This document shows positions 2,856-64,000 of a DNA stretch of 64,000 nt, piece after piece (within the stretch, counting starts at the first letter, position 1; every line of letters begins with the position of its first letter). This stretch comes from Muricea muricata. Lineage: Eukaryota; Cnidaria; Anthozoa; Malacalcyonacea; Plexauridae. A program made the position numbers and the translations under genes. The notes beneath the pieces are model-generated. The model did no database searches and had not been told where the DNA came from. It saw only the letters and a program-made list of their open reading frames with translations. Where the stretch lies: assembly GCA_963855995.1 (NCBI GenBank), contig OY979716.1:36581818-36645817 (forward strand), in the 5' to 3' direction.

Positions 2856-2895
2856 TGCCGATATAAAGGTTGCCCTGCCGATATAAAGGTTGCCC
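2856..2895. repeat. 20-bp tandem duplication disrupting the zinc finger
   Basis: The unit TGCCGATATAAAGGTTGCCC occurs twice back to back. Since 20 is not a multiple of 3, the duplication shifts the frame. With only one unit, the C-x4-C part would run straight into a downstream H-x3-H pair. Confidence 0.85.
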
Positions 2896-4021: not shown

Positions 4022-4032
4022 TTGATACTCCT

Positions 4033-5938: not shown

Positions 5939-6150
5939 TGTTGAATTTCAACGCAAACAATAGCTAATCTATTTGTATTATTTTGAATAAATTTACGACA
6001 TTAATTTAGGCAGCAGTTGACTTAGCCAATCAAAATACAGATTACATTCGAAATACACAGAGCTAATCAGATGCGAGTACAGTAATCCATGTAATTCAAC
6101 GGTCGCGAGAACACGATTTCGTGCACTGATTCGCAGACCCACTTTCTGGG
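5939..6150. promoter_or_regulatory. Upstream region of the RecQ-like gene and module 1 edge
   Basis: Region between the divergent starts at 5938 (-) and 6294 (+). It should contain the promoter of the RecQ-like gene and the outer end of module 1. No TATA box or terminal repeat could be assigned with confidence. Confidence 0.25.
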
Positions 6151-6177
6151 GGGTGAAAGTCGGGCTGGACGCAGGCT
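6151..6177. repeat. Half copy of the 44-bp hairpin at the transposon edge
   Basis: These 27 bases match 1008-1034 (loop plus right arm of the small hairpin) with one mismatch, and both copies are followed by ATGTCA. Here the sequence abuts the left terminus of the Kolobok-like element and seems to have replaced its outermost bases and TTAA. Confidence 0.7.
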
Positions 6178-38637: not shown

Positions 38638-38640
38638 TAC

Positions 38641-40803: not shown

Positions 40804-41915
40804 TAGAAAATTAAGTAGGTAACGCTCGTACGCATTTGGCTCAATGATTGTAAATATCATATTACGATGGCTGACATTTAAGTTAGAAAAACGCATACAG
40901 AAAAGTTATTCCCCAGAACTTGTGATATATCGTTAGAAAGAGCATGAAAATCCATATCATATATGTGAAAATAAAAAGAAATTATGGAATAGGTGACTAG
41001 AAAATTAAGTAGGTAGCGCTCGTACGCATTTGGCTCAATGATTGTAAATGTCATATTAGGTTTGCTGACATTTAAGTCGCAAAAACGCATACAGAAAAGT
41101 TATTCCCCAGAACTTGTGATATATCGTTCGAAAGAGCATGAAAGTCCATATTATAAACGTGAAAATAAAAAAATTTATTGAATAGGTATGTAGAAAATTA
41201 GATTGGTAGCAATGATACGCAGTTGGCTCATTGATTGTACACTAAACATCATATTACAATGACTGATATTTACGATGCATAAACACATACAGAAAAGTTA
41301 TTCCCCAGAACTTGTGATATATTGTTAGAAAGAGCATAAAAATCTAAATCATATATGCGAAAATAAAAAAAATTTATGGAATAGGTAACTAGAAAATTGG
41401 ATTGGTATCACTGATACGCAGTTGGCTCATTGATTTTACGCTAAGTATCATACTGATCTACTGATATTTGCGATGCATAAACACATACAGAAAAGTTATT
41501 CCACAGAAATTGTGATATATTGTTAGAAAGACCATGAAAATTTTTGCCATGTGTGTGAAGATAAAAAAAAATCTATAGAATAGGTAAGTAGAAAATAAAG
41601 TTGATGTTACTCATGCTCAATTCGTCTTGCGCATTTAATACTGATATTGTTTCAAATTTACTGATATTTAAAATGCAAAAACACATAGACAAAAGTTATT
41701 CCCGGGAACTTGTGATATATGGCTGGAATGAGCATAAAAATCTGTATCATTTATGTGAAAATAAAAAAATTCTATAGAAGAAGTAACTAGAAAATTAAGT
41801 TGGTAGCACTCATACGCAGATGGCTCATTGATTGTACAGTTAATATCATATTACAATGACTGACATTTAAGTTGCAGAGAAACATGGAGAAAATTTGTTC
41901 CCCAGAAATGGTAAT
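40804..41915. repeat. Satellite array, about 5.6 units of 193-199 bp
   Basis: Units start with TAGAAAATT-like sequence at 40804, 40998, 41191, 41390, 41589 and 41788. Each contains CATACAGAAAAGTTATTCCC near its middle and ends in AATAGGTAAC. Divergence between units is moderate. The array begins exactly where the BEL/Pao coding sequence is cut. Confidence 0.9.
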
Positions 41916-42142
41916 TTTTTATTTTAACCCCCAAAGCATAAGTCGCAAGAGCTGTAATTATTATTGCTTCAGAGACGAAAATTGAAAGTATTTGGAATGC
42001 TTAAAGCTTGATATAAATGTAAAAGGTGTTCGAATGATTGGAAATAGTAAGCATACCGCAGGTGGTCTTAATCTGTTTATTTAATCTCATAATGAATGTG
42101 GGGTGAATTTAGAGAGGAATGTGAGGACGAATATGGGGACCA

Positions 42143-42300: not shown

Positions 42301-42520
42301 AGGTAACTTAATCCAGATATTTGTAAAATCTTTGGTGAATTTTGTGTATGAATGATTACCGACAATGAGACATATCACAACTAGGCCTAATCGCATTAAC
42401 GCACTTTTTTAACGTAATAATGCCAGTAGAAGATTAATTGGTTAGAAGATTAATGAATTGCCTAAATCTGGTTTTCCAATGCATTTTTTGCTCGCAAAGG
42501 AGCATGAACTTAGTTCATGT

Positions 42521-44058
42521 CTGAAATGGTAATAATATAGACAATGTGAAATATTCCATTCCTCGAAAACAATCGCGAGTTGAAATATAGCTAGTTAAGG
42601 AATCAATTATACCCGAACAATTAAACGTCGTAAACTAACATTAATATTCCCTAAATTCCATTCAACATAGCCTAGGGTCACTAGCCGTCAATCGTTATCT
42701 GTCGCCTTGCTTTCATTGAATATTAAATTATTAGCACACAACAAGACTGGTCACACTCATAAGCATAAGCATATATAAAGCTGACATAGTCTAAGCATTA
42801 GAAACGTAAAGACAAAAGAAGAAAAAGGAAATAACTGAAATTGAGTCTTTTAAAGTCCCACAGGACAACGATCTCTTTGCTATTTTTACTAGCTTGTGCT
42901 ATATGTTTGCGTCGTAGTGAGGACCTGGCTTGCTGTTCATTTTTGGTTGTTTGAGACTTGGTCCGTTTGCATCTCAAGTTGTCATGTTGATGTTACATGT
43001 GGTGATTTTGAAGGACGATTTTCTGCACAATGGCCGGGCTGCACATAGCATTGTGAATCGCCGTTAAAAAATTGGGCCTGTTACATCGGCTTTGTGTTCA
43101 GTTTAAACAGAACTGGAAACAGCTTTGATGTCGGCAAACGCCTGTGAAAAGTGACATTTTTTTGTCAGCACTTCCTGTTTTTACAAAATCCCCACAGTTA
43201 CCGCGTAGAGTAGTGGAGTTGAAAGAGCATAAGATGACAGTCAAGTACTCATTAAAGGCTGTTTTCCACTAGGCAGAATTTTCTGCACGCAGCGCAATTT
43301 CTTCTTTGTTTGTGAGCTCTTAAATGTGTACTTGACTTTCATCTTATGCTCTTTCAACTCCACTACGCGGTAATTGTGGGGATTTTGTAAAAACAGGACG
43401 TGCTGACAAAAAAATGTCAATTTTCGCAGGCGTTTGCCGACATCAAAGCTGTTTGCAGTTCTGTTTAATAAACCGAACACAAAGCCGATGCAGCAGGCCC
43501 GATTTTTAACGGCGATTCACAATGCTATGCGCAGCCCGGTCATTGCGTGCAGAAAATCGTCGTTGAAAATCACTTCACGTCACATCAACATGACAACTTG
43601 AGACACTAACGGACCAAGTCTCAAACAACCAAAAATGAGCAGCAAGCCAGGTCCTCACTACGACGCAAACATATAGCGCAAACTAGTAAAAATAGCAAAG
43701 AGATCGTTGTTCTGTGGGACTTAGAGTTTTAAAACTCAGTTTCAGTTATTTTCTTTTTCTTCTTTTGTTTTTACTTTTCTAATGCTTAGACTATGTCAGC
43801 CTTATATATGCTTATGATTATGATAGTGACCAGTCTTGTTGTGTGCTAGTAATTTAATATTAAATGAAAGCAAGGCGACAGATAACGATTGACGGCTAGT
43901 GACCCTAGGCTATGTTGAATGGAATTTAGGGAATATTAATGTTAGTTTACGGCGTTTAATTGTTCGGGTAATTGATTCCTTAACAAGATATATATCAACT
44001 CGCGATTTTTTTCGAGGAAATGGAATATTTCACATTGTCTATATTATTACCATTTCAG
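42521..44058. repeat. Giant 1.54-kb inverted repeat (arms about 720 bp)
   Basis: The outer ends are CTGAAATGGTAATAATATAG at 42521 and its reverse complement ending at 44058. The arms can be matched continuously: CCATTCAACATAGCCTAGGG against CCCTAGGCTATGTTGAATGG, and CATCTTATGCTCTTTCAACT against AGTTGAAAGAGCATAAGATG. Small substitutions and indels occur. The stem closes near 43243/43325 around an ~80-base loop. No coding sequence is evident. It is a foldback element or an inverted duplication. Confidence 0.9.
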
Positions 44059-44464
44059 AATGCGATAAACTGGTAAAGTCCATTCAAATTGGCTTTTAAA
44101 AAAATTCATGTCAGATATTCTTTTATATTTCATTGCTGTACAGAATACAGAGTATACATGACTGTTTTATATCACGTAGATATTTAAATACGGGTAAATT
44201 GGAGAAAAAATCATCATAGTGGTTTGTTTGTTACATTTAAGAAGGAAATTTTTGCTTAACTGATAAGGTTTTCCGGTTAGTTGTTTAAGCACTAATGTCA
44301 ATCGTTTATAAAGTAGGCCCTTCAGCAGATAGAGTGTTGAGGCGTTCAATTCATAACAATAGGTTACTTAATCGTTTTTAGTGCAAAGTTTGAAAGAAAC
44401 TTTGCAGTATTTTGATGAGTGGTGAAAGTTTACATCTGTCATTCACCTGGCATCTTTTTTCAGT
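44059..44464. other. AT-rich spacer between foldback and module 2 copy A
   Basis: No gene was seen. Confidence 0.35.
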
Positions 44465-44476
44465 GGCCTATTCCAG

Positions 44477-45177
44477 GAAAGGTCGGTCACAATTATCTGC
44501 AAATGTGATAAGAGGCCAAAAAAGACTTCTGAAGCAATCATAAAACACATAGAAAGGTGACATAAGGATGAAAATGGAAGAATCACCCTAAACTCCAGGC
44601 ATTTGGAAGTGCTCGAAGGTATTACTTGGGATCAGCCGCCACTAATTTTGCCTGACAAACAAGAGGATAAAGAATTGTTTTTACTTAAGCAGTTATATGG
44701 ATTTGACTCATTTAGAGAAGGGCAGCTAGAAGCCATAGGTTCCATCACAGATGGTAATGATACACTTGTTATAATACCAACTGGAGGTGGAAAAAGTCTA
44801 ATTTATTCTGTGGCTGCTGTTATTATGCAAGGTCTTACTGTAATTATACAACCATTAAAATTTATTATGGAAGAACAAACAGAGAAACTTCGAGCAAAAC
44901 AGATTCCTGCATTCTACTACAATTCGTCCCTTACAGATACTGAGATGGACTATGTTGTAAACACCTTGTGTAGGCAAGATTTACCTTATGCTGTTCTGTT
45001 TACTAGTCCTGAATGCATTTCTTCTCCAAAGCTACAGCATGTACTTAAAACAGGAATGATTTGGGGAAATTGAGCTTCATTGCAGTTGATGAGGCTCACT
45101 GCATTGATGCATGGGGTCATGGTGTTCGGCCAGATTTCCTAAAACTTGGACACCTGAAAGATTTTAATGTGCCTATG
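44477..45177 (+). pseudogene. RecQ-like helicase N-terminal half, copy A
   Basis: Contains the LILPDKQEDKELFLLKQLYG leader, Walker A IPTGGGKSLIYS and the region up to LFTSPECISSP. A one-base deletion near 45054 (copy B has ACATGGAATG, copy A ACAGGAATG) then shifts the frame before the DEAH box, which is still visible at about 45080 ([13 protein letters not shown]). It breaks off at 45177. It shares with copy B the TGA upstream of the conserved HKDENGRITLN segment, so that stop predates the duplication. Confidence 0.85.
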
Positions 45178-45238
45178 TATTATCAAATTCCTGATAACTA
45201 TTTTTTCCATTTTTAAAGTTTTACATTGTACAGCATAC

Positions 45239-45500
45239 TGTATTTCCTCTATTTAGCCCTCTGACCTCTGGAACTTACTTCTTTTTACCATCTTTCAAGT
45301 GGGGGCTTTTTGGAAGGGAGGCTGAATATGAGGTGTTAATAAATTTCATCCAAAGTTGGTTACAAACAGCATATTCCTCAAAATCGATTTTTTTTTTTAC
45401 AAAGCTAATTTCACATACACAGATGGTGGCTAGCTTTTGGGCAGGGGCTTATTAAAAAGGGGGCTAGAAAGAGTCAGGGGCTAAATAGAGGAAATACATG
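45239..45500. mobile_element. ~260-bp MITE, copy in module 2 A
   Basis: TGTATTTCCTCTATTTAGCC at the left end is inverted at the right (GGCTAAATAGAGGAAATACA), with G-rich/C-rich inner parts. Possible TA flanks suggest a mariner-like type. The same insertion is present in copy B at 54517-54780, so it predates the duplication. Confidence 0.7.
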
Positions 45501-45557
45501 TATATAGTACAGTACTCAGAGCTTTATTCAGTCTAACAATAACTGGTATCTCAAATC

Positions 45558-46950
45558 TTGAAAACACTCATACAGCTTGTTTTCAAAATTGTCTGTTATT
45601 TTCTTGCAACCTTTTTCTTGAACTTCCAAAAAGCACTTGGACACTTTGCCCTCTTTACCTCCCTTTCAAAAGTACATCATCTTCAGCTTCACTTGGTAAA
45701 AGTAACTCCTTTTGCAAACAAAACCATGCACCTTTCAACTGATCTCTGAAACAGTCAGGAACTGAATGTCTGGAGGTGGAATGCACATCAAATGCCTCTT
45801 TCGCTGTATATGCAGCCCGCGTCATTTTTAAAAGGTCAATTGATCCCATTAGCCTCTGGCACATCTTGACTGATGTGCGACCTACAATTTTAAATTTCAT
45901 ATCACACTGAATAAGATTGTGTTGTTATTTCCTACATACATATTGATCAGTTTAAATAATATTACTGTACTATAAAATTTAGGTACAGTATGTATAATTG
46001 AAATTTAATAAACTAACAGATGTACAGTAAGGCATCAAACTGAAATGTGTTGTTCCAGAAAAACTACATACAGTACCACCCTTTCCACAGAGGAAATTTT
46101 TGCCATTCAGGAAGCCGTGAGAAATGTGTTAATATGTGTTGTTGGATAACTTGGATGTTTGAAAAAAGGGGAAAATTATTTCCTCCATGCAGTATGGATT
46201 TTTTTCTGGGGTTTTTTTTTAAATTACTAGTACCAATAAATAATATATGGTACAAGTACATGTATTAACCATACTATACTGTACCTGATACATATTTCTT
46301 CAATGGCTGTACAATTTCAGCTTCCACGAAAGCATCCATTTCTATTCCACTACCAGCTTTGCCAGTAATATTCACACTGCAATTTTGTCCAACAATTTTC
46401 CTGAAAGCAAGTGGCCATTTCCCAAGTAAGTTAACAGCACGACTAAAACATTCGGTATAGTAATTAGGAAAATTAAGCTGTGCATATGTTGGCAGTTGTT
46501 GTAGAAATACAGTCGCTGGCAATGACTAGTTGCTAGATTATATAGTTCTAACAATGGACCATAATATGCAAACATTCGGCTTCTGTATTTGAAGGATGGA
46601 CTGGCCATGGAAGATTTTTCCATCTACAATTTGAATTGTTTAAGAAGAACTTCAGTGTGGCTACCTGTTGCACAATAAAAATTTGAAAGCATGTCAGTAT
46701 CAGGATAAAGTTCGGACTTCTTAAATAGCATCACAGCAGCCAGACTGTAAGCTCTAGTCCCATCTTGTACAGCTTCCTTTATCCTGTCCAAGTTTCCTTC
46801 TGCAAATTTTTTTTTCTTAAATGCTTCCTTTGTGAGTTTTGGTCGTTTCATCACTTTTTGAACCAGGTGATGGAAACCGCCACAACCCTGCTCTTTAAAA
46901 CAAGCTTCAGCTAAATATCCCTTTGTATGCATATCACCAGGAATAATGTA
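45558..46950 (-). pseudogene. DUF6589-like C-terminal part, copy A
   Basis: Minus-strand exons equivalent to the last exons of the copy B gene: 46950-46624 ([40 protein letters not shown]), 46620-46290 (FAYYGPLLELYNLATSH, LLGKWPLAFRKIVGQNCSV) and 45900-45558 (KIVGRTSVKMCQRLMGSIDL). A small deletion near 45655 relative to copy B removes a stretch of the last exon. Confidence 0.7.
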
Positions 46951-48301
46951 CATGTAACTCGTAGTACCGTCGCCCTTGGACTTCAGCGAAACGCACGTTA
47001 TACTAATTCATACGCAGATGATAAAAGGAACGTTCAAATAAGAATCTCCTCAATATAAATCGAAATATATTCACCGTGGTTTCTAAACAACGAATTTACA
47101 AAACATACAATTACTAAACTATACAAACTATTACAAATTGACAAAACAACGTAGGACAAATACCTGACTGTTAATCCTCCTGACTACTAAATAATACGCT
47201 ACACCTTTCTACTCCGTCCAAATTTAAATATCAACGAATTACAAATATATATGACGCGAGTTCACTCTTCGAAAAGACAAAACATGTGTTCTCACTCGCC
47301 CGTGTTTGCGGGTTAATCCCTAAATTCAGGCTTCGTCCAACTAGATCCTACAGTACACGTGATTTCAAACACGTTCTAATTATATGCAAACATAGTTAAC
47401 TGAATTATACCAAAAGTTATGCTAAAAAATTGTGTTTTTGTCTCCAACAAGTGAACTGAATTTAATTGTCTTAAAACAACTACTTCACGTTTTACCTACA
47501 TTACTCTTTGTTTACTATGTGACTTTCCTTTAGATAACGATGTTATTTCGTTCAATATGTTACAAGTACAGTCATACAATTAAGTGCTTTGGTATCGTTC
47601 AAAGTTTCACTGCATCGCGCTTGCAATGACAAAATAATCAGCCATACAAACAAGCTGTGGATTTATACTTAAACTATGGTGTTATTCAAACCTGGTTCAC
47701 ATATATCGTAATTCATCGGGGATACCCTTCTGGTGTTATTGTTGGTGAACCATCGTTCATAAAATCATTTGTGTTTCTGAAATCATTTTCTCCTTCAGAG
47801 ACATTGCACTTTATATCGGCGATGAATTGCCATGAATTATGTATAAAAAAACCCAGGCCTATATACAGTCCAACTCCTGTTTATGGTTTTGTATGCGTTT
47901 CATTTGCCAGAGATGGTAAAGAGAGATAACGAAGAATTTTCGTGACGGTAAGTGAAACACATTGCCTTATATTTCAACAAAACAATGTCAATCCTTGTGA
48001 AATCTGCAATAATTGAATTCAATTCAACATAGTTTTTCATACTATAGCAATTTGTTTGGAAATATAAAAATCTAAATTCTGCCACTGATTTTATGCATAA
48101 TTAACTTCCGACCTGGCATGTTGCATGGTGATTTTCTTGGAATATATTATAGTTAGGCAATGTTTTGCTTCTAATAACCACCCCTATAGGCAACCCTTCT
48201 AAACACTATAGGCACCTCAGAAAGGCTGTTGCTTTTATTTTCAGAAGTTAGAGCTATGTCGACACTGCCGTTTTAACGCAGGGTCATTTTGACTCTTTCA
48301 G
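46951..48301. other. Spacer between module 2 copies A and B
   Basis: No gene or repeat was recognised on either strand. It is AT-rich and would include the copy B 5' end and helicase promoter. Confidence 0.35.
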
Positions 48302-50396
48302 ATGCACCAAAATGAGATGACGACAGAAAATTTTGAAAAACTTTTTTCAGTGGCCCTCTCCATGTCCCAAACTCCGGGGCAGCATCAAAATGGAAAGTCA
48401 GGGACTTTTCAAAGCAAAAAACTCTCCGAGCTCTCGTGGGGAGGACTGCTGAGAAAGCTATTCCAGGAAAGGTCGGTCACAATTATCTGCAAGTGTGATA
48501 AAAAGAGGCCAAAGAAGACTGCTGAAGCAATCATAAAACACACAGAAAGGTGACATAAGGATGAAAATGGAAGAATCACCCTAAACTCCAGGCATTTGGA
48601 AGTGCTCGAAGGTATTACTTGGGATCAGCCGCCACTAATTTTGCCTGACAAACAAGAGGATAAAGAATTGTTTTTACTTAAGCAGTTATATGGATTTGAC
48701 TCATTTAGAGAAGGGCAGCTAGAAGCCATACGTTCCATCACAGATGGTAATGATACACTTGTTATAATACCAACTGGAGGTGGAAAAAGTCTAATTTATT
48801 CTGTGGCTGCTGTTATTATGCAAGGTCTTACTGTAATTATAGAACCATTAACATTTATTATGGAAGAACAAGCAGAGAAACTTCGAGCAAAACAGATTCC
48901 TGCATTCTACTACAATTCGTCCCTTACAGATACTGAGATGGACTATGTTGTAAACACCTTGTGTAGGCAAGATTTACCTTATGCTGTTCTGTTTACTAGT
49001 CCTGAATGCATTTCTTCTCCAAAGCTACAGCATGTACTTAAAACATGGAATGATTTGGGGAAATTGAGCTTCATTGCAGTTGATGAGGCTCACTGCATTG
49101 ATGCATGGGGTCATGGTTTTCGGCCAGATTTCCCAAAACTTGGACACCTGAAAGATTTTAATGTGCCTATGGTTGCCCTTACTGGGACAGCAACAGAAAG
49201 AGTAACAAAAACTATACTGTCTACACTTCACATGAATTCAACAACAGTTATTGAACTTAATTGTTCAAGAGAAAACTTATTCATACATATCAATCAGAAA
49301 AGTGATAAGCCATTTCAACAAATAGCTTTTATTAAGTCAAGCTATTTAGGGAAAAGAGGAATAGTATACTGTCCAAAACGAAAAGATACAGTTGATCTTG
49401 CACACTACTTAAAATCAAATGACATTGTTTCGGTTTTTGTGCATGGTGGTTTGTCAGATCCAGATAGGAAGGTCTATGAACATGCGTGGTCCACTGGCAG
49501 TGCAAATGTTATTTGTGCAACCAAATCCTTCAGGATGGGGATTGACCACAAAGATGTCAGATTTGTTGTACATTTATCATTTCCCGAGAGCATTGAGGAT
49601 TATATAGAAGAAATTGGTAGAGCTGGTAGAGATGGTAATCCTGCAGGATGTGTGCTATTTTTTAGTCACCAGGACAGGTCCTTCCATTTACATAATATAA
49701 TGGGTATTGAGGAAGAACAACACAGATCATATAAGCATGAGATCATGAATGAAATGGTAAGGTATTGTGTTCAAAGTACATGTCAGGGGTGGATCCAGGG
49801 GGTATCGAGCGTATCTGCTGATACGGTCAGATTTTTCAAATATAGTATATGGTAATGTCATTGTATATATTTACAACGTCTGGCATCTGTGCTATATATA
49901 TTATTAAACATTCGTAATAACTTGCACCAATACGACATTAAACTGTCCTTTTTCGCTGCAAACAATAATATGTAGGAAATAGTTTCCATAATTGTGTTTA
50001 CAGACTGAAAATTGCCGATTATCTGCATGGAAATCGCCAGGAAAACCCCGCTTTGATATCAAATGACTGCTTCACCGACAGTTCACCGAGAACTCGCCGA
50101 AGATTCAGTTGTATTTTCGGAAAATCTTCGTATAAAATGGCGTCCGCGATCAGCCAATTAGTTGATACGGTCCGCGGTTCGATGTTACTAAATATAGTAA
50201 CTTTTGGATACACTGAAGTGTATCCAGCCAATCAAATGGCTGGATCTTGTGACTTCGGATACACTCTGAAACAGTGGCCTTGATTTTGTTGCGCAATCGT
50301 GTATCAACCATGGTATCAACGAAGGCTGGCCGGGAATTCGGGAAAAGCTCGGAAAATCGGGGGTCATATACATTACCCTTGTTCTTCTTGTTCGAG

Positions 50397-50603
50397 ATGG
50401 CGTCTAGTTCGAACTTCAACAATGTGCTAAAGCAGCTTACTGCTATTTCCCGTCAATTAAACTCAGGAGAGGATGCTTTGAGCGAATCACATGTGTTAAA
50501 AGAACATTGGGATTGCGGCCGTGTTTTGGTCGAAGGTGAAGCTTGTGTTGAGCAGCAGTGCCAACAGAGAGAAAGTGCGAAGTTCGAATTCTCAAAGCTG
50601 TAA
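50397..50603 (+). CDS. Small ORF inside the hAT-like element
   Basis: 68 codons from ATG 50397 (MASSSNFNNVLKQLTAISRQ) to TAA. It is polar with a helical N-terminus and matches no family I recognise. It is preceded by a stretch that could serve as a promoter, and followed, 1.3 kb on, by an OTU-like domain on the same strand, so it could be the first exon of that gene. It may instead be chance. Confidence 0.35.
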   Translation: MASSSNFNNVLKQLTAISRQLNSGEDALSESHVLKEHWDCGRVLVEGEACVEQQCQQRESAKFEFSKL

Positions 50604-51899
50604 TTTCCTAAGAGCCAGAAATATCGTTCAGGATGATGTGAACCTGTAAGGTGAGGCTGGCGAGCACTTTATTAATGAAAGTATTTAACATTCAAAACGT
50701 TATTCGAATCGGTAATTATGTAAATTTCTTGTTATTTCTATGTAAATGTTATGAATATTCAAATCAAACGAGATTTCACAGCGTTGTGGTTGTATTCAAA
50801 CATGAATTTATCAGCCCCAAGGCTGTACCATTTCAACCTGTATGACAGGTTGATTAAGAAATGTGTTTATTTTATATTGCTGAATTGTGTGAAAGATTTT
50901 AAGTGTAATTTACAAAATACAGGTTATACAGCCTCAAATAATTGCATAAGATAATCATAGTAAAACATTCCGTGATAAATTGATAATGATTGATTTAAAT
51001 TTATGGCAAAAAGACCACTGAATGTATTTGATAATTTTGTCCAAAGGTCATATTTAGCACGTAAAAAATTTGCAGTTTACTGTATTAAGACTTCACAAGC
51101 ACAAATTGGAGTTTTTATTCATGAGATTATTACAGCAGTTGGGATTCTCTGAGCATCCTAATTGTTCCTGGTCATTACTCATTAGCAAATACTTCTACAC
51201 TCACTGCTATATAACTTACCAGTAGTTAAATTTATATTATAGCCAAACCAACATTTCTTTTGCAAGCAATTGTTCAACACAGCATCGCAATGTTGTTTGC
51301 ACAAGAACAACTGGTTTCAATGTAGTTCAGACCTCCAAAGTAATTTTAAGCAACAAATTTACTATTTCCCATTTAGTATTGAGTACACTGATTATGTATT
51401 ACAGTAATGAAATGTAGGACATTGTGTCTATGCTGAATATGTGCCAGAATAATTGCAAGGGTATGTCAACCCTGCCAAATTTTAATGTATTAGCTTTTTG
51501 GGGTTGGGGTTAATAGAAAATGGCATGGGTCAGTTTTTATGCTCCACTTTGTGTTGCCAAATTCCAAGTTAAAAGTGTGTTAAGATTTCCATTAGACTAT
51601 TAATGTAATACCATGCTAAATATATTCCCATTTGACTAAACCAAATGCACCCTGGATTTCATTTAGTAAATTATATACAATGCTAACTTCTATGTGCTTG
51701 AGTTTTTACAACAATAATTCTATTCGGAATTAATTTTAAGACATATGTATTTTAAAGGGCATCATAATATTTTTCCAGAAAAAAATTATTAGGGGTAAAT
51801 ACTTTATTAAAAATGGTATCTAGTGACATGATAATGCATGATTTCTCATATACTAGTTATTTGCACTTGGAATATGAATGATCAAAGCTCCTTCATAAT

Positions 51900-52323
51900 A
51901 ATTGTTCTGTATAAAATCAATATAGCACCTTGGCTGATGGGAACTGCCTCTACAATGCTTGCTCCATGGCACTTACCGAGATTCACATGTGTCAGCTGTT
52001 TTATGATGCCTATCAAGTATTGAGTTGTATGAAAATGCTCAATACTATGGCAGTCATCCAACAATTAAATTGATGCATAAAAAAGGAGCATTCACTTCAA
52101 TTAGAAATGCTTTTGCTATCTCTGTTTGTCTGATTCTGCCCTTCCCATTTTTGAATCACAAGGCCTTGTTGCAGCAGTTATTGAAGAAGCACAGCTTAAT
52201 GCACAGAATTTTACTTTTTCATCTATGATTTTTCATCTGAGTCATACTACCATGCCAGCAAAGATTCGTCACCAAGAGAGGAGTGGGATTCTTTGGAAAA
52301 AATGTTTAATTGCGCTGTGGTAA
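51900..52323 (+). pseudogene. OTU-type cysteine protease domain fragment carried by the hAT-like element
   Basis: Near 51924 one frame reads YSTLADGNCLYNACSMALTE, the D-G-N-C catalytic cysteine loop of OTU deubiquitinases (ADGNCLYNA). After a frame change near 52000 another frame reads ELYENAQYYGSHPTIKLMHK and KKGAFTSIRNAFAIS. A third gives DSALPIFESQGLVAAVIEEA and AQLNAQNFTFSS to 52323. The order of these segments fits the OTU family variants seen in invertebrate repeats. An intact protein would cleave ubiquitin-like chains; here at least two frameshifts break it. Confidence 0.6.
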
Positions 52324-53351
52324 AGTGAGCCAATGATTAAATTTTAATTATTTTGATGCATCGAATGTAGTGAAAAGAAATTATTTTTGGTCATTCCACA
52401 CAAAATTTTAGACTTTGTGTATAGTATTATACATTGTATTATTGTTTGCAGCGTTTCCATGTCAGTAAATTTCGGCTCAAACCGTTAAAGTCAGCACAGA
52501 AAGTTGACTGTAGTTGTCAAATTTTAAAAAAAAACGTTGGCAGGCTTACATTATCCGGTTAGACTTGTCACTCGTGAAAAATCCAACACTCACCACGCGC
52601 AAAGGGTTTGGCATGCTGAGTAAATGAGTTGTATATGGAATTTGATGCCTGACATAAGAAAGTAGTGTGAATAAATAGCTAATTTTTCTATCTTTTTGGA
52701 CATTTTGGCAGTCGATTTTTGTTTAAAATTGACACGCCAAAACGCAGGAAATAGCATTTGCGGGGTTCTAGTTTTCAAAATTTTCTGGGGGAGCATGCCC
52801 CCAGACCCCCCTAGAGGCTCGTGGCTACGCCACTCGCGGACGCCTTCGGCGTCCAAATTTTTGATACGGTCAGATTTTATGCTAGATCCGCCCCTGGTAC
52901 ATGTCGACACAAATTCCTCATGTCCTACTTCGGCAAAGATTTGTTGGAGTGTGAAGAGCATTGTGACAATTGTATGTCAAACATTGTTACTGTACCTCAA
53001 GATGCTACCTCCATATCATGCATAGTTGTGAGAGGTCTCCGATGATTACAAGATACACATGATAAGGTTACCGTTCTATTGCTGACACAGTTTTTAATGG
53101 GTTCAGCAACTATTGTGTTAAAAGGATTGGCCCTTGATAAAGTTCCAGAATTTGGCTCGGCAAAAAGTTTTTATAAAACAAGGACAGGAAGGAAAGATTT
53201 GCAAGCATTAATATATCACCTTATTGTTAAAGGGATTATTGGTGAAGTTTCAGCAGGTACTCCAGAAAGGCCAAGTATTGTGATACGTACAGGTGATGTG
53301 ACTGATCTTTTACAAGGTGGCAAAGTTTTGTTTTGTCCATTTAAATATTAA

Positions 53352-54044
53352 ATGAGAATTTGTACATTTCCTTTACATGCAATTCCAAATAGATATTATA
53401 CAAAATTATCACCATAGATATTGTGCATAATGATATCATTTTGTGGTTACATCAACATGTGCTGTAAATGTCAGCTTTGTATTTAAAACGATGCCTGTAA
53501 AGTAATTTCGAAAAATTTGACAAATTGTTGACAACAATGTGATGCCACTATGCACCATTGATATTTCCTCAGTTATTACTTGCTTAATTATACTGATCAC
53601 TTTGTTAAGTACATATTTGCAGTATTACAACGTATTTACTGTACAAATAACTTAAAAACTTTCAATATAAGTGCTATACTTCATAAAATTACTTTGGATG
53701 ACTGAACTTTTACTGTATATAAATTTTAGATGAAAAGTAACTCTTATATAACTGTTCTTGTTATACTTACTTTGTATAAATAGGTATACAATAGTGTTAA
53801 TTATTATTTAGAATAGTTTGTACAGTTAAGTATGAGCAGAGAAGAAATTTTATTACAATTTCATGTAAATCACAAAAACTTGCTCTGAGTAGGGCTGAAG
53901 CTAGAGTGAGAATTGAGTGTGCATATTGGTGGAGATGCCTGACAAATCTATTGAAATGGAATTTATATTTATGATATCCAATTATATTGCAAAAGCAAAT
54001 TGGCAGAAATGTCCTGAAGACACAGTATCTGTATTCAATTCACC
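53352..54044. other. AT-rich spacer between convergent genes of module 2 B
   Basis: No gene was seen; this is the 3' region of the RecQ-like gene. Confidence 0.35.
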
Positions 54045-54231
54045 ATAGCAAAAAAGATGGCGGATGTTGATTTTACCAGAATGCGTTGCAGTCTGTGGTT
54101 ATTTTCTAACTTGTGTAAGTTGTGTTGAAATTTCATTCCATTAGCTTAATTTCTTTTTTGTCAGCTATTTTTACTTGATCCCACAATGCATTGTAATAAA
54201 ATTGACATATAACTGCCATCTTTTTTGCTAT
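54045..54231. mobile_element. 187-bp MITE-like inverted repeat
   Basis: ATAGCAAAAAAGATGGC at the left is inverted at the right (GCCATCTTTTTTGCTAT), with further imperfect pairing (GAATGCGTTGCAG against CAATGCATTGT). No clear target duplication was seen. Confidence 0.65.
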
Positions 54232-54516
54232 CAATAATGGTCAATTGTTGCTATAGTTTTGGCCTGAGTATGTTTCATTTGTAAACCATACCATGAATAA
54301 ACATATTTGAAAACTTTAGTTCACGTTTCCACATATGTATGTACATACAAACACATGCACATACATGCACAGTATGTACATACAGAGGATGCATTTTTAA
54401 ATTTCCTTTGTGTAAAGAGGGGGAGGGGTGTTTTGGATCTTTTCTGAGATGAACCATTTATCAAATTCCTGATAACTATTTTTTCCATTTTTAAAGTTTT
54501 ACATTGTACAGCATAC

Positions 54517-54780
54517 TGTATTTCCTCTATTTAGCCCTCTGACCTCTGGAACTTACTTCTTTTTACCATCTTTCAAGTGGGGGCTTTTTGGAAGGGAGGC
54601 TAGATATGAGGTGTTAATAAATTTCATCCAAAGTTGGTTACAAACAGCATATTCCTCAAAATCGATTTTTGTTTGTAACAAAGCTAATTTCACATACACA
54701 GATTGTGGGGAGCTTATATACTTTGGCTAACTTTTGGGTAGGGGCTTATTAAAAACAGGCCTAGATAGAGGAAATACATG
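54517..54780. mobile_element. ~260-bp MITE, copy in module 2 B
   Basis: Same element and same position relative to the gene as 45239-45500. The right end is slightly decayed (CTAGATAGAGGAAATACATG). Confidence 0.7.
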
Positions 54781-57780
54781 TATATAGTACAGTACTCAGA
54801 GCTTTATTTAGTCTAACAATAACTGGTATCTCAAATCTGGAAAACACTCATACAGCTTGTTTTCAAAATTGTCTGTTATTTTCTTGCAACCTTTTTCTTG
54901 AACTTCCAAAAAGCACTTGGACACTTTACCCTCTTTACCTCCCTTTCCATCTACAAGAAGACACTTTGGTACATTATCTTCAGCTTCGCTTGGTAAAAGT
55001 AACTCCTTTTGCAAACAAAACCATGCACCTTTCAACTGATCTCTGAAACAGTCAGGAACTGAATGTCTGGAGGTGGAATGCACATCAAATGCCTCTTTCG
55101 CTGTATATGCAGCCCGCGTCATTTTGAAAAGGTCAATTGACCCCATTAGCCTCTGGCACATCTTGACTGATGTGTGACCTACAATTTTAAATTTCATATC
55201 ACACTGAATAAGATTGTGTTGTTATTTCCTACATACATATTGATCAGTTTAAATAATATTACTGTACTATAAAATTTAGGTACAATATGTATAATTGAAA
55301 TTTAATAAACTAACAGATGTACAGTAAGGCATCAAACTGAAATGTGTTGTTCCAGAAAAACTACATACTGTACCACCCTTTCCACAGAGGAAATTTTTGC
55401 CATTCAGGAAGCCGTGAGAAATGTGTTAATATGTGTTGCTGGATAACTTGGATGTTTGAAAAAAGAGGAAAATTATTTCCTGCATGCAGTATGGATTTTT
55501 TTCTGGGTTTTTTTTAAAATTACTAGTACCAATAAATAATACATGGTACAAGTACATGTATTAACCATACTATACTGTACCTGATACATATTTCTTCAAT
55601 GGCTGTACAATTTCAGCTTCCACGAAAGCATCCATTTCTATTCCACTACCAGCTTTGCCAGTAATATTCACACTGCAATTTTGTCCAACAATTTTCCTGA
55701 AAGCAAGTGGCCATTTCCCAACTAGGTAACAGCATGAATAAAACATTCGGTATAGTAATTAGGAAAATTAAGCTGTGTATATGTTGGCAGTTGTTGTAGA
55801 AATACAGTCTCCCTTGCTTGCCCCCGGCAATGACTAGTTGCTAGATTATATAGTTCTAACAATGGACCATAATATGCAAACATCCGGCTTCTGTATTTGA
55901 AGGATGCACTGGCCATGGAAGATTTTTCCATCTACAATTTGAATTGTTTAAGAAGAACTTCAGTGTGGCTACCTGTTGCACGATAACAATTTGAAAGCAT
56001 GTCAGTATCAGGATAAAGTTCGGACTTCTTAAATAGCATCACAGCAGCCAGACCGTAAGCTCTAGCCCCATCTTGTACAGCTTCCTTTATCCTGTCCAAG
56101 TTTCCTTCTGCAAATTTTTTTTCTTAAATGCTTCCTTTGTGAGTTTTGGTCGTTTCATCACTTTTTGAACCAGGTGATGGAAACCGCCACAACCTTGCTC
56201 TTTAAAACAAGCTTCAGCTAAATATCCCTTTGTATGCATATCACCAGGAATAATACCAACCCACTGATGACTTGCAGATCTGGACATAACACCTCTATTG
56301 GTTTTACATGTCCCTATGTCACCAACAACACCAGTAAGGAAACCAGGAAATGACCTCTTGCAAGTTCCACTTGTTTCCTCAGTGGTATGCAAATTCATAT
56401 CTGAATTAGAACATGAGAAGATGGGATCATAAAGCTGCAAATCAGCATCTTCTTCATCTGATCTTGTTGGTTGAAGGATATCCAAAATTTCTGCAAGGTC
56501 CATATTTTTTGGCAATAGAAACAGGACTAGGAACATTAGTAAACAAGGGACCCCTCACACTAGCTCTTGCATTTACCAAAAGTTGACAAATCTCTTTACT
56601 TTTTTGTATTATTGCAATAATAAGGGGAGTGGCACCACATTTCTCCTTGACGTTTGGATTAAAGCCGGTGTGAAGCAAACATTGTACAAAATTTAAATCT
56701 GATTGCTCCACAGCAACATGCAAAAATGTCCTTCCCAAATGATCTTTCATGGTTTTAATATGAGGTTTTTCTTTGATTTCTTTTACAATCCGGTCAAGTT
56801 TATTACCCTTCACAGCATCATCAATTTTATGTTTTACAGAGTCTTAAGTACTTTTAAACAATCTGTCTTAGATGTCAAAGATCCTTTGGATGCTACTTAA
56901 AGTTGTCTCGACTGTGTGATCATTTTCCGTCTGAACATGCAAATCAGCAGTGTCATTTTCATCGCAATTGTCAACATTAGGTGTACTTATTCCAGACGTT
57001 AACAAATCTTCATTTTCTTCTGCTGATGACAACTCTAGTTGGTACTCACTCCTTCCTTGGCCATGGTAGTGCATCATTATCATAAATTCTTCATGCTCTC
57101 TTGCTTCCTTAAGTGAAAATGTTTTGGTATTTTTGTCAAATGGAAGTCTTTCTGATTGCTCTGTGTTTGGAAGTGAAAACTCTTTACAAAACTGATCCAA
57201 AATAGCACAAGTACCGGTTAAGGTGCTGTTATTCTCCAACGATATAGGCAATATAATAGTGTCAGTCTTTCGTGATGATTGTGAAAAATCAATGTAAGAG
57301 TAATCAGCCGACACTTTAACTTCTGTTGATTCAGAATATGATTGTGTGGATAAGCAACGATCACATTCCTTTTCAGACATTTCACTTGATGGTTTTTCTG
57401 TTGAAATATTTAAACCATCCTTTAGTAAGTTAGTAAAATAGCAATCAAGATGCTTATTCCACAGTTCATTGTGTGCTTTATTCTTTTCCAAGCTAACATC
57501 TTCATACACAAAGTTTGTGACATCACATTGACTTTGGCACACAGTCTCTTTTGACACCAGAAACTCTTCAATTCCATCTAGATTTGGAATTAACATTCCT
57601 CTTACAGTAAAGTTCCACATGTTACAGCCATAGGCTTTGAACAGTCGATGATGCCGCTTATTTCCACGGTACATGCTCACATTATCTATAAGCAATAACA
57701 ATGGCATTTCTTGTGGTGTGCTGGCTGAACCATGCTTTACTTTATCTTCTAACTGCTGGTCAACAATCAGTGACAAAACT

Positions 57781-58008
57781 GTTTTGGACAGTTGGTTCTC
57801 AACCTACAAGTAACACAATTTTTAGAGAGTTGCTTAGATAAAGCAGCTCCCTCCCTCCCCCCCACCCTAAACAATGTTGTTGGTGTTGTATACAACATTT
57901 TGTGTCATAATTGTTCGCTTCAACATTGAAAGGGGGGCACGGGGGGTCAAATATACAGCAGTGTAGTGTTATTTGATATTTTGTCCAGAGTGTTTTGTCA
58001 CTGATTGT
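57781..58008. repeat. ~225-bp direct repeat, first copy
   Basis: Matches 58856-59082 almost base for base (from GTTTTGGACAGTTG to TTTTGTCACTGATTG). It spans the intron between two exons of the DUF6589/ankyrin gene plus both exon edges. Confidence 0.9.
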
Positions 58009-58855
58009 CTGTGAGGTTCATTTATATTAATGAATTAAAATTTAGTTCTGAAGTTAAAAATGCGTGTATTTGAGAGTATTTTTGACAGTATTCGCAAATG
58101 ACTAAGTTGACGGACGTTTTAAAGCGCAGAGATGTTCAACACATACAATTAGCACGGATTTTTCTTTACATGTATGCGTCAGTCATTTTGTGACTGGATA
58201 CTACAACTGATCGGACATTGGTGATTTTGCTTTTCGCCAACGCAAGGAAGACATCTCGATTTATCTGGATTTTAAAATACGTAAACGTATTTAGGACAAA
58301 ATGCAATTATCATTGGGTGTTTATCATTTGATACTTATGCAAACTATGCGTCATGTTGTGTATCCACCCTGGCATTGAAGTGGTAGTATTATAAAAGGCG
58401 CGTCATTCATAATGAATTACAGCTAGTTCTTTCCCCCAGCGAACAATTATGAAGTATAATGTACGGATTTACGATATGACGCGAGCATATGTTCTTTTCC
58501 TTGGCCGAGAAAAAAGTATTCATGCAGAGTGATTGCTAAAAAGGCGAATATATCCAAACCACCTGTTTCGCTTATTCTCAGCGACAGTGTCCAGGAAAAA
58601 CGCAGCATAATTAAACCCAAAAATATTGGTAGGCCGAAGAAGCTGACAGACAGAGATCGAAGAAAACTAATAAGAACAATTAATACTATTCGAAATGAAG
58701 ACCCAAACTTTACTGTTCAGCGTTTGGTTGCCCAAAGTGGCCTATTATCACGCGAAATATCATACCGTACCATTTATCGAGAGGTGAAAGCGACTGGTTT
58801 TAACTTTCTACCAGCACGTAAAAAAGGGAGTTGTAATATGTTATATTATAAAACT
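58009..58855 (+). mobile_element. Tc1/mariner-like fragment between the direct repeats
   Basis: 847 bp present only once, flanked by the ~225-bp repeats. It carries the start of a Tc1-like transposase but no catalytic domain, and its ends are not classical terminal repeats. Confidence 0.6.
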
Positions 58856-58888
58856 GTTTTGGACAGTTGCTTCTCAACCTACAAGTAA
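58529..58888 (+). pseudogene. Tc1-like transposase DNA-binding domain, truncated
   Basis: Open frame with a helix-turn-helix region (MIAKKANISKPPVSLILSDS), the GRPKKLTDRDRRKLIR linker (a GRPR-type motif) and a second helix-turn-helix (ISYRTIYREVKATGFNF) ending PARKKG. This is the bipartite paired-like DNA-binding N-terminus of Tc1-family transposases. The frame then runs into the duplicated intron sequence and stops at 58888, so the DDE/D catalytic part is missing. Confidence 0.75.
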
Positions 58889-60369
58889 CACAATTTTTAG
58901 AGAGTTGCTTAGATAAAGCAGCTCCCTCCCTCCCCCCACCCTAAACAATGTTGTTGGTGTTGTATACAACATTTTGTGTCATAATTGTTCGCTTCAACAT
59001 TGAAAGGGGGGCACGGGGGGTCAAATATACAGCAGTGTAGTGTTATTTGATATTTTGTCCAGAGTGTTTTGTCACTGATTGAAGATAATTCATTAGTGTG
59101 TTCCAATGAATAGTAAGACCACACTTATTGAGCATATTAATCATGCGGCAACCAGCACCATATGAAACAAGCAAGATTGTAAAAATTAGTGTTACATCGT
59201 TTCTGCAGTGTCGATTTCGCAAGCTTGCCAATAATGATAAAGCATGTATTGCACATTTTGGCTTCCAATCTGAAATTTCACTTTCAGGAAATAAACTTTG
59301 AATGACACTTGTTAGCATTGGGCAATCATTTATAAAATTAAATTTCAAATCATTGAAAATTTCACTTGATATTGTTTCTTCAAGTGATGCTGCACCACGC
59401 CTTATACCAAGATCAACTAGTCTAGACAACCCACCACACTTGGATGTCATGATTGATGTTTCTGTGGCTGAAAGTGTATTATCCGAGCTTCTTTGCAACA
59501 AAAGTTTGGTTTCTCTTTCATAAATCTGATCAACACAGTTTGTTAATTCAGTAATTTTTTCCATTTCTAATGCTACATACTGACCACAGAACGTAAGTAG
59601 ACACTTGCCTTGAACATCAGAATTAGACTTTATCGTGTCCATTATCTCCTTTGCATGGTTCCTACAAGCTGATATCTCTTCTTGTAGTAGCAGAATTTCA
59701 GTGTTTTGGCTACCTTCCAAATCTGGCGTTTCATTCGAGAATTCAAAGGAAATAGACTTTCTTATATTTCTGTAGTGTTTCCTTCGTTTGTCATATGTAA
59801 CAGTGGGGAATGCAGCCTTTACCGCTCTCGTGGTCAAACTCTTACTTTCAATTTTAAGGAAATCCATAACTTCAGCCTGATCTGTTGTTTTTCCAGGGCT
59901 TTCAACAAATTTTTCTTGAAGGTGAGACTGCAATACATTCTGCCTTTTTTTGCAAGCATCGCCATGTAACCATTTTGGTGGGGGTTCATATTTGTTTTGG
60001 TCGAGTTCCACTTCAGCTTTTCCTCATTTACTTTTCACTGGTGAGTGGAAGGTGCTGGTGAGTGGAAGGTGTTCATGATCAGAGAGTTCACGATCACACT
60101 GCTCAGGTGCTTTTAAGGGAAAAATGCGTTTTATTACTTTCGGTACACAAGAACATTTACATAAATAACAATGATATTCATATTAAGTCTGAAATTTTTA
60201 AGGAATATAAGGAATAAGGTTTACATCCGCGGATGTTATAAAATGATAAAAGGCAATTTAACACATTCAAGACGTTAAACAAAGCAAAAAATAATATTTT
60301 ACCTTCCAAAGATAAATTATGTAGGGATTCATTCAAAACGTCAACATCGTCATTCAAATCATCCTCCAT

Positions 60370-60745
60370 ATTTACATATTTTGCACCAGGAACAACAAAA
60401 AAATTAAAAATATACAGTTAGATGACATCATTGGTTGACGACAGATCGCCAGATTTCTCGTTAATGAACAAAATAGTTCGGATTGCAATAAAAAATTAGG
60501 ACGTACCACTTTTCGAGCTTTTGTCCCAGAAATCGAACTAAATGTAACAGAGGCTTCCTTCCCCTCTTTTCCTTCCTGCGCCTTTCCACTTTTTTTTTAT
60601 TTTTCCTTTTTTCGTCGTCTGTGTTTCAATTTCCAGTGCCTATTCTTTACACCGTTACACTCTAGCGCACTGCTGTAATATATGAATATTATTACCGACG
60701 TACATAGAGCTGACATAGAGCAACGAAAAAAAGCCTCTGCCGAGG
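60370..60745. other. Upstream region of the DUF6589/ankyrin gene
   Basis: AT-rich with a pyrimidine tract (about 60556-60630). It should contain the minus-strand promoter and the outer edge of module 2 B. No terminal repeat was identified. Confidence 0.35.
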
Positions 60746-61520
60746 AGAGGGGTACAAATTTATTTTGACCTTGATTGATTATGCTACTAGATATCCAGAA
60801 GCAATTCCGTTAAAAACAACACATTCTCGTGTTATCGCTGAAGCGCAAATTAGTTTATTCTCACGAGTGGGCCTACCAAATGAAATAGTCTCTGATCAAG
60901 GTTCTAATTTAATTGGACAACTGATGACACAGTTGTATGAGTTATTGGGTATTTCACATATCAAAACGTTGGTTTATCACCCAGAGGCTAACGGTCTGGT
61001 TGAGAGATTTAACCGCACTTTAAAACGTATGCTTAAGTTTGTAAAGAATCAAACTGATAATTGGGATAAATATTTACCGTACGTGCTATTTGCCTATCGC
61101 AAAGTTCCATGTCAGTCGACTGGTTACTCGCCGTTTGAATTGTTGTACGGGAGGAGTATACGGGGGCCTTTCTCACTAATTATAGAAACTTGGGTTGGTA
61201 AAGACTCTTTACCCAAAGACGTGTTAAGTTATGTGTTAGAAGCGCGACGACGTTTGAGTCAAATGCAAAATATTGTCGTGAAAATATCCAAAAGAGTCAA
61301 GCCAAACAGAAGAGGTTTTATGACCAGAAAAGTTCGCATAGGAAATTTCAGATTGGCGATAAAGTATTAGTATTGCTACCGACGCCTGGGAGTAAACTGG
61401 AAAGTAAATGGCAGGGTGCCTATACTGTCACTAATGTTTTTTACAACGGTTTGAATTATGAATTAGACAGAGAAAAGGGGCGAAAGCAAAAGCAAACTTA
61501 TCATATAAATCTATTAAAGC
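60746..61520 (+). pseudogene. Gmr1-like retrotransposon integrase (5'-truncated)
   Basis: Starts abruptly in the catalytic core: LIDYATRYPEAIPLKTTHS (first Asp), EIVSDQGSNLIGQ (second Asp), YHPEANGLVERFNRTLKRM (Glu), then YRKVPCQSTGYSPFELLYGR. A one-base frame break near 61300-61370 leads into a second frame with the C-terminal part (SKLESKWQGAYTVTNVF, YHINLLKLW). The N-terminal HHCC zinc finger is missing. The same open frame runs on into reverse transcriptase without an LTR, so integrase lies upstream of RT. Confidence 0.85.
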
Positions 61521-62591
61521 TTTGGAAAACTAGAGAGGAAATAAGTAGTTTTGCTTCCTCTGGACTTCTCTCTGAACATTTATGGTGTCAGCATAGTTTC
61601 CCATCTGTTGATAAAGAGGAAACATGGAGAGATGTCGAAATTTCATCAGAATTAGGTAAGATACAAAAAGAAAAAGTTCAGAAATTACTCAAGGAATTTT
61701 CAGATGTTTTTTCCAATATTCCTAGTCGGACTTATATAGCCGTTCATAGCATTGACACGGGTCAAGCTACTCCAATACGTTCCAGTCCATATCGGATTCC
61801 TCAAAGTTTAATTGACGCGGTTGATAAAGAATTGGACCAGATGTTAGAAATGGGGATAGTTAGACCCTCAACTAGCCCTTGGGTTTCGCTTGTAGTAATA
61901 GTCCCAAAACCAGATGGAAATATTAGATTTTGTGTTGACTATCGTAACTTAAATTGTGTAACTAAAATGGATGCATATCCTATACCACGCACAGATCAAA
62001 TGCTTGAAAAAATTGCTAAAGCTAAGTTTATTTCCACTATTGATTTAACCAAGGGATACTGGCAAATTCCTCCGTCCTTCCGTCCTTTCTGAAACTAAGA
62101 AACAAGTTCGTTCATTTTTGGGACTTACAGGGTATTACCGTAGGTTTAAAAAAAACTACGCTGATATTGCGATTCCTTTAACTAATTTGACAAAGAAAAC
62201 TGAGCCTACAGGTGTACGATGAACGGATGTTTGTGAGAGGGCATTTAATGAATTAAAGTCCTTGTTGAAGTTCCCTCCAATTCTAAGACCCCCTCATTGG
62301 GATGAATTGTTTATCTTGCAAGTAGATGCTTCAGATTTTGGGGTAGGGGCCATACCTTGCCAGGTGGATAATGAAGGGCAGGAACACCCTGTTGTGTTTG
62401 CCAGTAGGAAGCTACAGCCTCGAGAAATAAAATTGTCTACAACTGAAAAAGAGTGCTTAGCGATAGTTTGGACAGTGGAGACATTTCGGTATTATCTGTT
62501 TGGAAGAAAATTTATTCTTCAAACGGATCACAACCCTTTAGTTTGGTTGAATGAGATTGCACTTTCACCAGCAGAAAGAGATCCAAGTTGA
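61521..62591 (+). pseudogene. Gmr1-like reverse transcriptase and RNase H, RT core deleted
   Basis: In frame with the integrase C-terminus come DVFSNIPSRTYIAVHSIDTG, RSSPYRIPQ, VPKPDGNIRFCVDYRNLN and motif [16 protein letters not shown]. The sequence then breaks at 62085 and resumes with [20 protein letters not shown]. The stretch with the YxDD active site is therefore missing. A TGA at 62220 follows. RNase H is visible from 62262: LFILQVDASDFGVGA (Asp), LSTTEKECLAIVWTVE (Glu), LQTDHNPLVWLNE (Asp). The ORF ends at 62591. The element cannot replicate on its own. Confidence 0.85.
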
Positions 62592-62604
62592 AAGAAAACT
62601 GTCA

Positions 62605-62795
62605 CACATAATGGAATCGAAACCTGTTGGACGTAGCGAACCTGAATGCTGTCACACGTAACAGAATTGAACGCTGTCGTACGTAGTAGACTTGAAGCTG
62701 TCGCACGTAACGGAATCGAAAGCTGTTCTAGGTAGCGAACTTGAAAGCTGTCGCACCTAACGGAATCGAAAGCCTTAGGAAATTTAATTGGAGCT
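62605..62795. repeat. Degenerate ~50-bp tandem repeat after RNase H
   Basis: About four copies of a unit containing CTGTCGCACGTAACGGAATC and GTAGCGAACTTGAAAG with variants. It probably lies in the 3' UTR or polypurine/LTR region of the Gmr1-like element. Confidence 0.75.
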
Positions 62796-63019
62796 CTGAC
62801 TTGAAATGGTATATGGCTAGCCGAAGACACAGCGGAGAGGAATAACTCGCCACGGGATGCAAGTATCGCAGCTTGTTAGACATTAAATTAGAATATAGGA
62901 TAGGATTTACCCTGTGTAGCTCTAGATTTAGTTATTATTTTAGAATTATATATTTGAACCTTTTGCTATTCGAAGTATTGTTTGCCGGCACCCACACAAG
63001 CGGATTGAACTCCGTCACA
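62796..63019 (+). other. Probable end of an LTR
   Basis: This stretch lies between RNase H/tandem repeats and a primer-binding site, and ends in CACA. A second LTR copy is not available in the window, so the limits are inferred from position only. Confidence 0.4.
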
Positions 63020-63021
63020 AT

Positions 63022-63033
63022 TGGTGGCAGCGG
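63022..63033 (+). other. Primer-binding site, TGGTGGCAGCGG
   Basis: TGG-initial sequence directly after the presumed LTR end, ~85 bp upstream of a gag start. It has the form expected of a tRNA 3'-end complement in gypsy-like elements. Confidence 0.6.
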
Positions 63034-63119
63034 TAAGATTAATTATAGTCGGCTAATGGGAAATACTGGTATTATTACTGAACAATTATTTTGAAATACA
63101 TAATAATTAGATTATATCA

Positions 63120-64000
63120 TGAGCGAATACGACGATTGGGATTTAGAACGATTAAGGGAAGAATGTGCTTGCCGTGAAATTGTAGTTAATGCAAAAGATG
63201 GTGTTAAAACACTGGCTTGGAGGTTACGAGTAAGCGATAAAGCTGTACAAAAAGTATAGGAAGCGAACGAGACTGTAGAATTGGAAACTGAACGGGGGGT
63301 ATTTGAGCCCTCAAAAACACAAAAAATAAAAGCTGTTAGAAGACCAGGGAAATTTCAATATTGACCATGACTATGGTAAAAAGGGTAAAATTCTCTCGGG
63401 TCCCACAATTTATGAAAGTACTCGCGAGCCCCAGGGGTCTTTAAGTTTTGAAGAACAAATGCGCCTTTTGCAATTTGAAAGAGATATGACATTAGCGCGC
63501 GATGAGTTGGAAAGAAGAAGCAAAGAGCGAAAAAGGAGGGCTGAAAGGGAAGATAAGGCATTTGAATTAGAATGACAGAAATTCCAGATCTATCTGGCTG
63601 AGCAGAAAGTACCAAATTCGTTGAAGGTGCGAGAAATGAGAGAAAACTAGGATATAGATGATTATTTTCGAATTTTTGAGATGACTGCAAAGGCTCAGTT
63701 AATTCCGCAAGAAGAGTGGCTGGGTAGTTTAATTGCCCGTTTAAGCGAAAAAGCTAAGTCTATATACTTCGAAATTGTGGGTCCAGGTGCTCAGAATTAT
63801 AATAAAAGTAAGGCTATTATATTGAAAGCGTATCAGCTTAATGTTGACCATTTTAGATATCGATTTCACCATTCAGAAAAAAAGGCAGGTGAAGACTTTG
63901 GTCAATGGGCTCATCGAACCCGTAGATATTTGAATCGATGGATGACTGTGGCAGAGGCCATAGAAGACCGAGAAAAGATATTAGAACAAATTGTTATTGA
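63120..64000 (+). pseudogene. gag of a gypsy-like retrotransposon (runs off the window)
   Basis: ATG 63120 opens MSEYDDWDLERLREECACRE, a short SAP-like N-terminal helix pair seen in gypsy gags of this type. Stops follow near 63258 and 63361. Later frames show an Arg/Glu-rich coiled coil (63460-63570) and then the capsid-like region DYFRIFEMTAKAQLIPQEEW, LIARLSEKAKSIYFEIVG and EDFGQWAHRTRRYLNRWM. This region is SCAN/retrotransposon-gag-like. It lies just downstream of an LTR and primer site, so it begins a new element unit rather than ending the previous one. Confidence 0.7.

Follow-up and report, generated by a model that had tools for sequence, protein, structure and literature searches.

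In the stretch of Muricea muricata DNA analysed here (the window, 64,000 nucleotides of contig OY979716.1), we found a RecQ helicase gene and a gene for a DUF6589 protein with ankyrin repeats that point tail to tail, that is, in convergent orientation (copy B). The helicase gene lies on the forward strand at 48302-53351 and has DEAD, Helicase_C, RecQ zinc-binding and RQC domains by Pfam. The DUF6589 gene, the presumed transposase gene, occupies 54808-60369 on the reverse strand. On exon translations joined with X, it matched PF20231 at 28.2 bits (cut-off 27, E = 1e-6) and Ank_2 with E = 1e-10. The convergent pair named in a preliminary description of this DNA was thus borne out by its Pfam domains.

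Copy B is dead: its RecQ gene has in-frame stops and a hAT-like insertion, and its DUF6589 gene a second insertion. The hAT-like insertion (49784-52896, 3,113 bp) has the termini CAGGGGTGGATCCA and CAGGGGCGGATCTA (CAGGGG) and the 8-bp duplication GTACATGT on either side (49776-49783 and 52897-52904). The RecQ frame is also broken by two in-frame TGA codons, the first at 48551 and the second after the insertion. The TGA at 48551 is common to copies A (below) and B, and either is older than their split or marks a misread intron. The second insertion, ~1.3 kb at 57764-59081 between two DUF6589 coding stretches, has a 16/16 terminal inverted repeat (CAATCAGTGACAAAAC). Inside it are a direct duplication of 233 bp and, as judged by eye, the remnant of a Tc1-like element; no open frame joined across the insertion came out of a scripted frame search. 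The predicted protein P0064, from a 22-member cluster, is 99% identical to the RecQ of copy B and runs into the same hAT-like junction, so its origin is this genome, a sister genome or a further copy with the insertion.

The right terminus of copy B was placed at 60732-60751 (reverse strand) by an 18/20 match to the terminus of a relative at C1:103221205-103229527, and the end at 60751 was located only through that relative. For the ends of copy B, listing inverted repeats and duplications exhaustively yielded nothing better than the control, and the left terminus was found neither in this way nor by searching with the relative's terminus. A candidate target duplication, GTACAAATT, stands at 60752-60760; its exact left partner was not found. 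Retroelement reading frames begin directly right of the terminus (60752-64000), with a reverse transcriptase and an integrase core below its cut-off, and by eye the retroelement is Ty3-type. Because the terminus stands directly against these frames, copy B probably sits inside the retroelement. Elsewhere in the window, a Pao/BEL-type retroelement (37655-40814; DUF1759, reverse transcriptase, Pao peptidase) is followed by a tandem repeat with a unit of ~194-200 bp at 40804-41923.

A fragment and a second, diverged pair

Copy A (44454-46953) is a RecQ piece (+) joined to the 3' part of a DUF6589 gene (-), with neither element end present. It matches copy B in two blocks, 44468-45177 with 48458-49171 (98%) and 45180-46947 with 54458-56254 (95%). 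Near its left edge it lacks 102 bp of copy B, homology beginning at a 15-bp stretch common to both, and it ends deep within the DUF6589 gene, at about position 56254 of copy B, with everything 5' of there absent. The preliminary description had taken copy A for a non-autonomous derivative with a clean 5.3-kb internal deletion. The two-block match stood, but 3,113 bp of the apparent deletion, more than half, are the hAT-like insertion of copy B; both ends are also missing, and copy A gives no support to a neat derivative. Of 2,458 aligned sites, 52 differ between the two copies, and the changes in the counted reading frames (8 silent, 21 replacement) indicate neutral change in both, as one would expect of dead copies. 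Immediately left of copy A lies an imperfect palindrome of ~1.5 kb (42520-44059, arms 90-100% complementary) that looks like a foldback element.

At the left edge of the window, locus 1 (1-6177) holds a DUF6589 gene of a lineage without ankyrin repeats (the plain lineage; 1-3654, +, 5' end outside the window at about -504) and a RecQ gene (4036-5938, -). They converge as in copy B. The proposal that the same pair recurs here in diverged form was upheld, the pair spanning 1-5947, with Pfam matches to DUF6589 (E = 1.2e-16), DEAD (E = 2e-18) and RecQ_Zn_bind (E = 3e-4, below the curated cut-off) and no significant DNA similarity to copy B (best E 0.11). Locus 1 is broken: its RecQ gene lacks 578 bp at 4680/4681 relative to its sibling at C1:42566681 (C1:42.57 Mb), presumably the part where Helicase_C is expected, and upstream of the window a 7.8-kb stretch separates positions -553 and -8338. 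By eye, an open frame inside that interruption (L025 about 1270-1500, window about -7730 to -7500) is protein kinase N-lobe-like.

The right terminus of locus 1 is a ~250-bp terminal inverted repeat on the reverse strand (5928-6177) that ends AGCCTGCGTCCAGCCC at 6177. An inverted copy of it, 99.2% identical, lies at -8613, and the L053 sibling shows this to be the other terminal repeat of locus 1; no matching target duplications were found at the two termini, -8613 and 6177. A palindromic mini-element of 44 bp (991-1034), composed of terminal sequences of the element, lies between exact 10-bp repeats ATGTCAGATT (981-990 and 1035-1044) and is also present in the L053 sibling. Exact 10-bp repeats at that spacing occur five times in the window, its own included, and the repeat alone would be weak evidence. 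An open reading frame at 7127-7693 matched the P2X7 intracellular domain family (PF20478, E 6e-24).

Pairing, ends and near-identical copies across the genome

The host genome (453 Mb, 74 contigs) contains dozens of relatives of the window's gene pair. Among the clusters listed, a RecQ lay within 15 kb of 33 of 37 ankyrin-lineage DUF6589 clusters and within 16 kb of 31 of 42 plain-lineage clusters, and every pair of both lineages together was convergent (64/64). Uniform placement would give about 0.2 pairs for the ankyrin lineage and 0.4 for the plain lineage. Adjacency beyond chance, on which the preliminary description had let the idea of a mobile unit depend, was thus observed, at 64 pairs against under one expected. 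A single 124-Mb contig carries 30 of the 37 ankyrin-lineage clusters. The uniform model therefore puts chance too low, but with all 64 pairs in the same orientation the shortfall is immaterial.

The ankyrin-lineage count used all 67 and 88 listed rows and the plain-lineage count all 60 and 150; the genome searches scored the best 47 of 235, 79 of 637, 53 of 851 and 150 of 585 candidates; the counts are samples of larger families. A partial plain-lineage count of 29/40 (43/60 DUF6589 rows, 75/150 RecQ rows, three by eye) was superseded by 31/42. The 33 ankyrin-lineage pairs include copies A and B, and locus 1 is absent from the plain-lineage rows. The unpaired clusters (4 ankyrin-lineage, 11 plain-lineage) may be fragments or may have RecQs left unscored; at one of them, the plain-lineage locus at C1:52.62 Mb, only a likely left end (14/17 bases) was seen, with no RecQ match in 16 kb.

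Common boundaries among copies, the other point on which the earlier proposal was to stand or fall, were found at 7 of the 11 ankyrin-lineage loci fetched, where both termini are present as inverted repeats; 2 loci show one end and 2 none. Five of the seven have 9/9 target duplications: C1:27175993-27186647 (CATACGTTG), C1:28253993-28264618 (GTTGTGAAT), C1:71749104-71760759 (AAAGAAATA), C1:103221205-103229527 (ATCTAATCC) and C1:28166177-28177412 (CTGCAACAC). The other two, C1:73287409-73298157 and C1:54851244-54857299, have 8/9, and in a control of 56 comparisons the flanks of different elements agreed in at most 7 of 9 positions. One end each was present at C1:108.82 Mb and C1:13.16 Mb, and none at C3:30.69 Mb or at C1:63.13 Mb, where there is a weak inverted match without duplication. 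In C1:28.17 and C1:73.29 only 17 of 24 terminal bases are alike; the ends of C1:73.29 were missed by an automated test requiring 13/16 and were placed via its near-identical partner C1:28.17.

Among plain-lineage loci away from the window, two of the three fetched had both termini and 9-10-bp duplications. The element at C20:20682-31459 showed 22/24 terminal identity and a 9/10 duplication; here the automated end test favoured a palindromic site lying 13-14 bp closer to the middle. At L053 (C1:42566440-42574131) the termini match, and we read its flanks as the duplication GCTAACATTC, 10/10 provided that the left terminal T is assigned to the element; terminal bases of this sort decide between a length of 9 and one of 10 bp. 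Where both ends were found, the elements measure 6.1-11.7 kb, with RecQ towards one end and DUF6589 towards the other.

Two copies (C1:28.17 Mb and C1:73.29 Mb) share 99.97% identity along 6,817 bp and 99.5% along 3,960 bp, occupy different sites with different duplications, and have DUF6589 and RecQ matches free of internal stops. On this sequence comparison, the element appears to have moved recently. A fixed convergent unit, inverted repeats, 9-10-bp duplications and many diverged plus two near-identical copies were all directly seen, and the mobility suspected earlier is strongly supported by the genome pairs, termini, duplications and near-identical copies.

Outside the host genome, a DUF6589-ankyrin protein (P0005) and a RecQ (P0070) both derive from a contig of 7,065 bp in one and the same source, a coincidence of length that suggests, but does not prove, a linked pair there. 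DUF6589 alignment and protein scans of viral_contigs and genome_contigs returned no relative, and two terminus patterns gave 0 and 16 matches in viral_contigs.

The DUF6589 and RecQ proteins

The best PDB matches of the copy B RecQ were BLM and bacterial RecQ. In its protein search (best 120 of 7,975), the first 28 rows (P0063-P0090) stood above the rows named bacterial RecQ. Among proteins sampled from this search of copy B only, the RecQ of locus 1 was not closer to copy B's relatives than to bacterial RecQs.

Relatives of DUF6589 were found in the cnidarians Paramuricea, Dendronephthya, Oculina, Porites and Rhopilema, among others. The two DUF6589 lineages barely align to each other (hhalign probability 1.3%), and members of both match PF20231. 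Among database proteins, the full set of candidate catalytic D, D and E residues was present in 6 of the 43 from the ankyrin lineage and in 8 of the 17 from the plain lineage, many of the remaining proteins being incomplete. The first two candidate acids are 428-487 residues apart in six complete ankyrin-lineage proteins versus 152-155 in most plain-lineage proteins, and in the ankyrin lineage the ankyrin array is placed between them. AlphaFold models of both lineages were of low confidence (mean pLDDT 53 and 52), too low to support an RNase-H-like fold.

DUF6589 is likely a transposase. On balance, we lean towards reading this domain, which has no function in Pfam, as the catalytic domain of AcademH-type transposases, one cnidarian lineage of which carries an ankyrin array between the first two catalytic acids, perhaps as a partner- or target-recognition module.

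Class assignment and comparison with known transposons

The window very probably holds two dead copies and one fragment of autonomous cut-and-paste DNA transposons of AcademH type, a known class. This assignment is based on the length of the duplications, the type of helicase and the range of hosts, and not on transposase homology. The AcademH features present here are a RecQ-type helicase, 9-10-bp target duplications and terminal inverted repeats. AcademH is reportedly, by the title of a 2020 paper of Kojima (Mob DNA 11:15), a helicase-encoding DNA transposon in animals and fungi. The preliminary description had held that DNA transposons bearing RecQ are no standard class, and this view has to be given up, as passages of two papers place a RecQ helicase in Academ transposons (PMC3627910) and in KolobokH (PMC9587614). 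The new element type that it envisaged very probably gives way to the helicase-carrying class AcademH, already described.

A new eukaryotic superfamily unrelated to Academ, in which a DUF6589 transposase and a RecQ were combined independently, is unlikely. It would agree with the basis of the Academ link in features other than transposase homology, with the great divergence of the two DUF6589 lineages, and with the literature searched, where DUF6589 is unnamed. Against it, RecQ and 9/10-bp duplications are already in print for Academ and AcademH, the part of PMC10045372 concerned giving target duplications of 9 or 10 bp for AcademH and of 3 or 4 bp for AcademX. Far less probable is KolobokH or another RecQ-bearing Kolobok lineage. 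Excerpts of PMC9587614 describe, besides the RecQ of KolobokH, a RecQ on the complementary strand in Kolobok-1_CCri, but they also state that Kolobok duplicates TTAA and that KolobokH is known from fungi only; the duplications found here are 9-10 bp long and varied in sequence, and the 4-bp TTAA duplication is absent. Host genes adjacent by chance and copied through segmental duplication, suggested by the closeness and long common stretches of A and B, can practically be dismissed given dozens of dispersed convergent pairs, ends defined by inverted repeats and target duplications at the fetched loci, and the neutral change of A and B.

For an AcademH-type element, we infer the transposition chemistry and the roles of both proteins as follows. 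The DUF6589 protein, as a DDD/E transposase, would bind the inverted repeats, cut the element out there and join it to target cuts staggered by 9-10 bp. RecQ might open, unwind or process DNA at the element ends, or help in replication or gap repair; that it accompanies DUF6589 in two deep lineages speaks for a required role. This would give a probable function to an uncharacterised Pfam domain, and helicase-carrying copies with exact ends, two of them near-identical, make a role of RecQ in cut-and-paste transposition testable.

A literature search on such transposons in cnidarians found nothing on point among the matches listed, and the portions of PMC12210899, PMC10294476, PMC12730594, PMC8290104 and PMC12220804 searched held nothing further on AcademH. 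AcademH and KolobokH helicases in fungi are mentioned in part of PMC10799480. Going by papers that cite the work of Kojima, AcademH resembles the window elements in having a RecQ-type helicase besides the transposase, and its 9- or 10-bp duplications are those seen at the relatives of the window element. AcademX belongs to the same superfamily but differs by its 3-4-bp duplications and by a nuclease instead of the helicase. KolobokH, in the excerpts cited above, likewise joins RecQ to a DDD/E transposon, as here, and unlike the elements of this genome it has TTAA duplications and fungal hosts.
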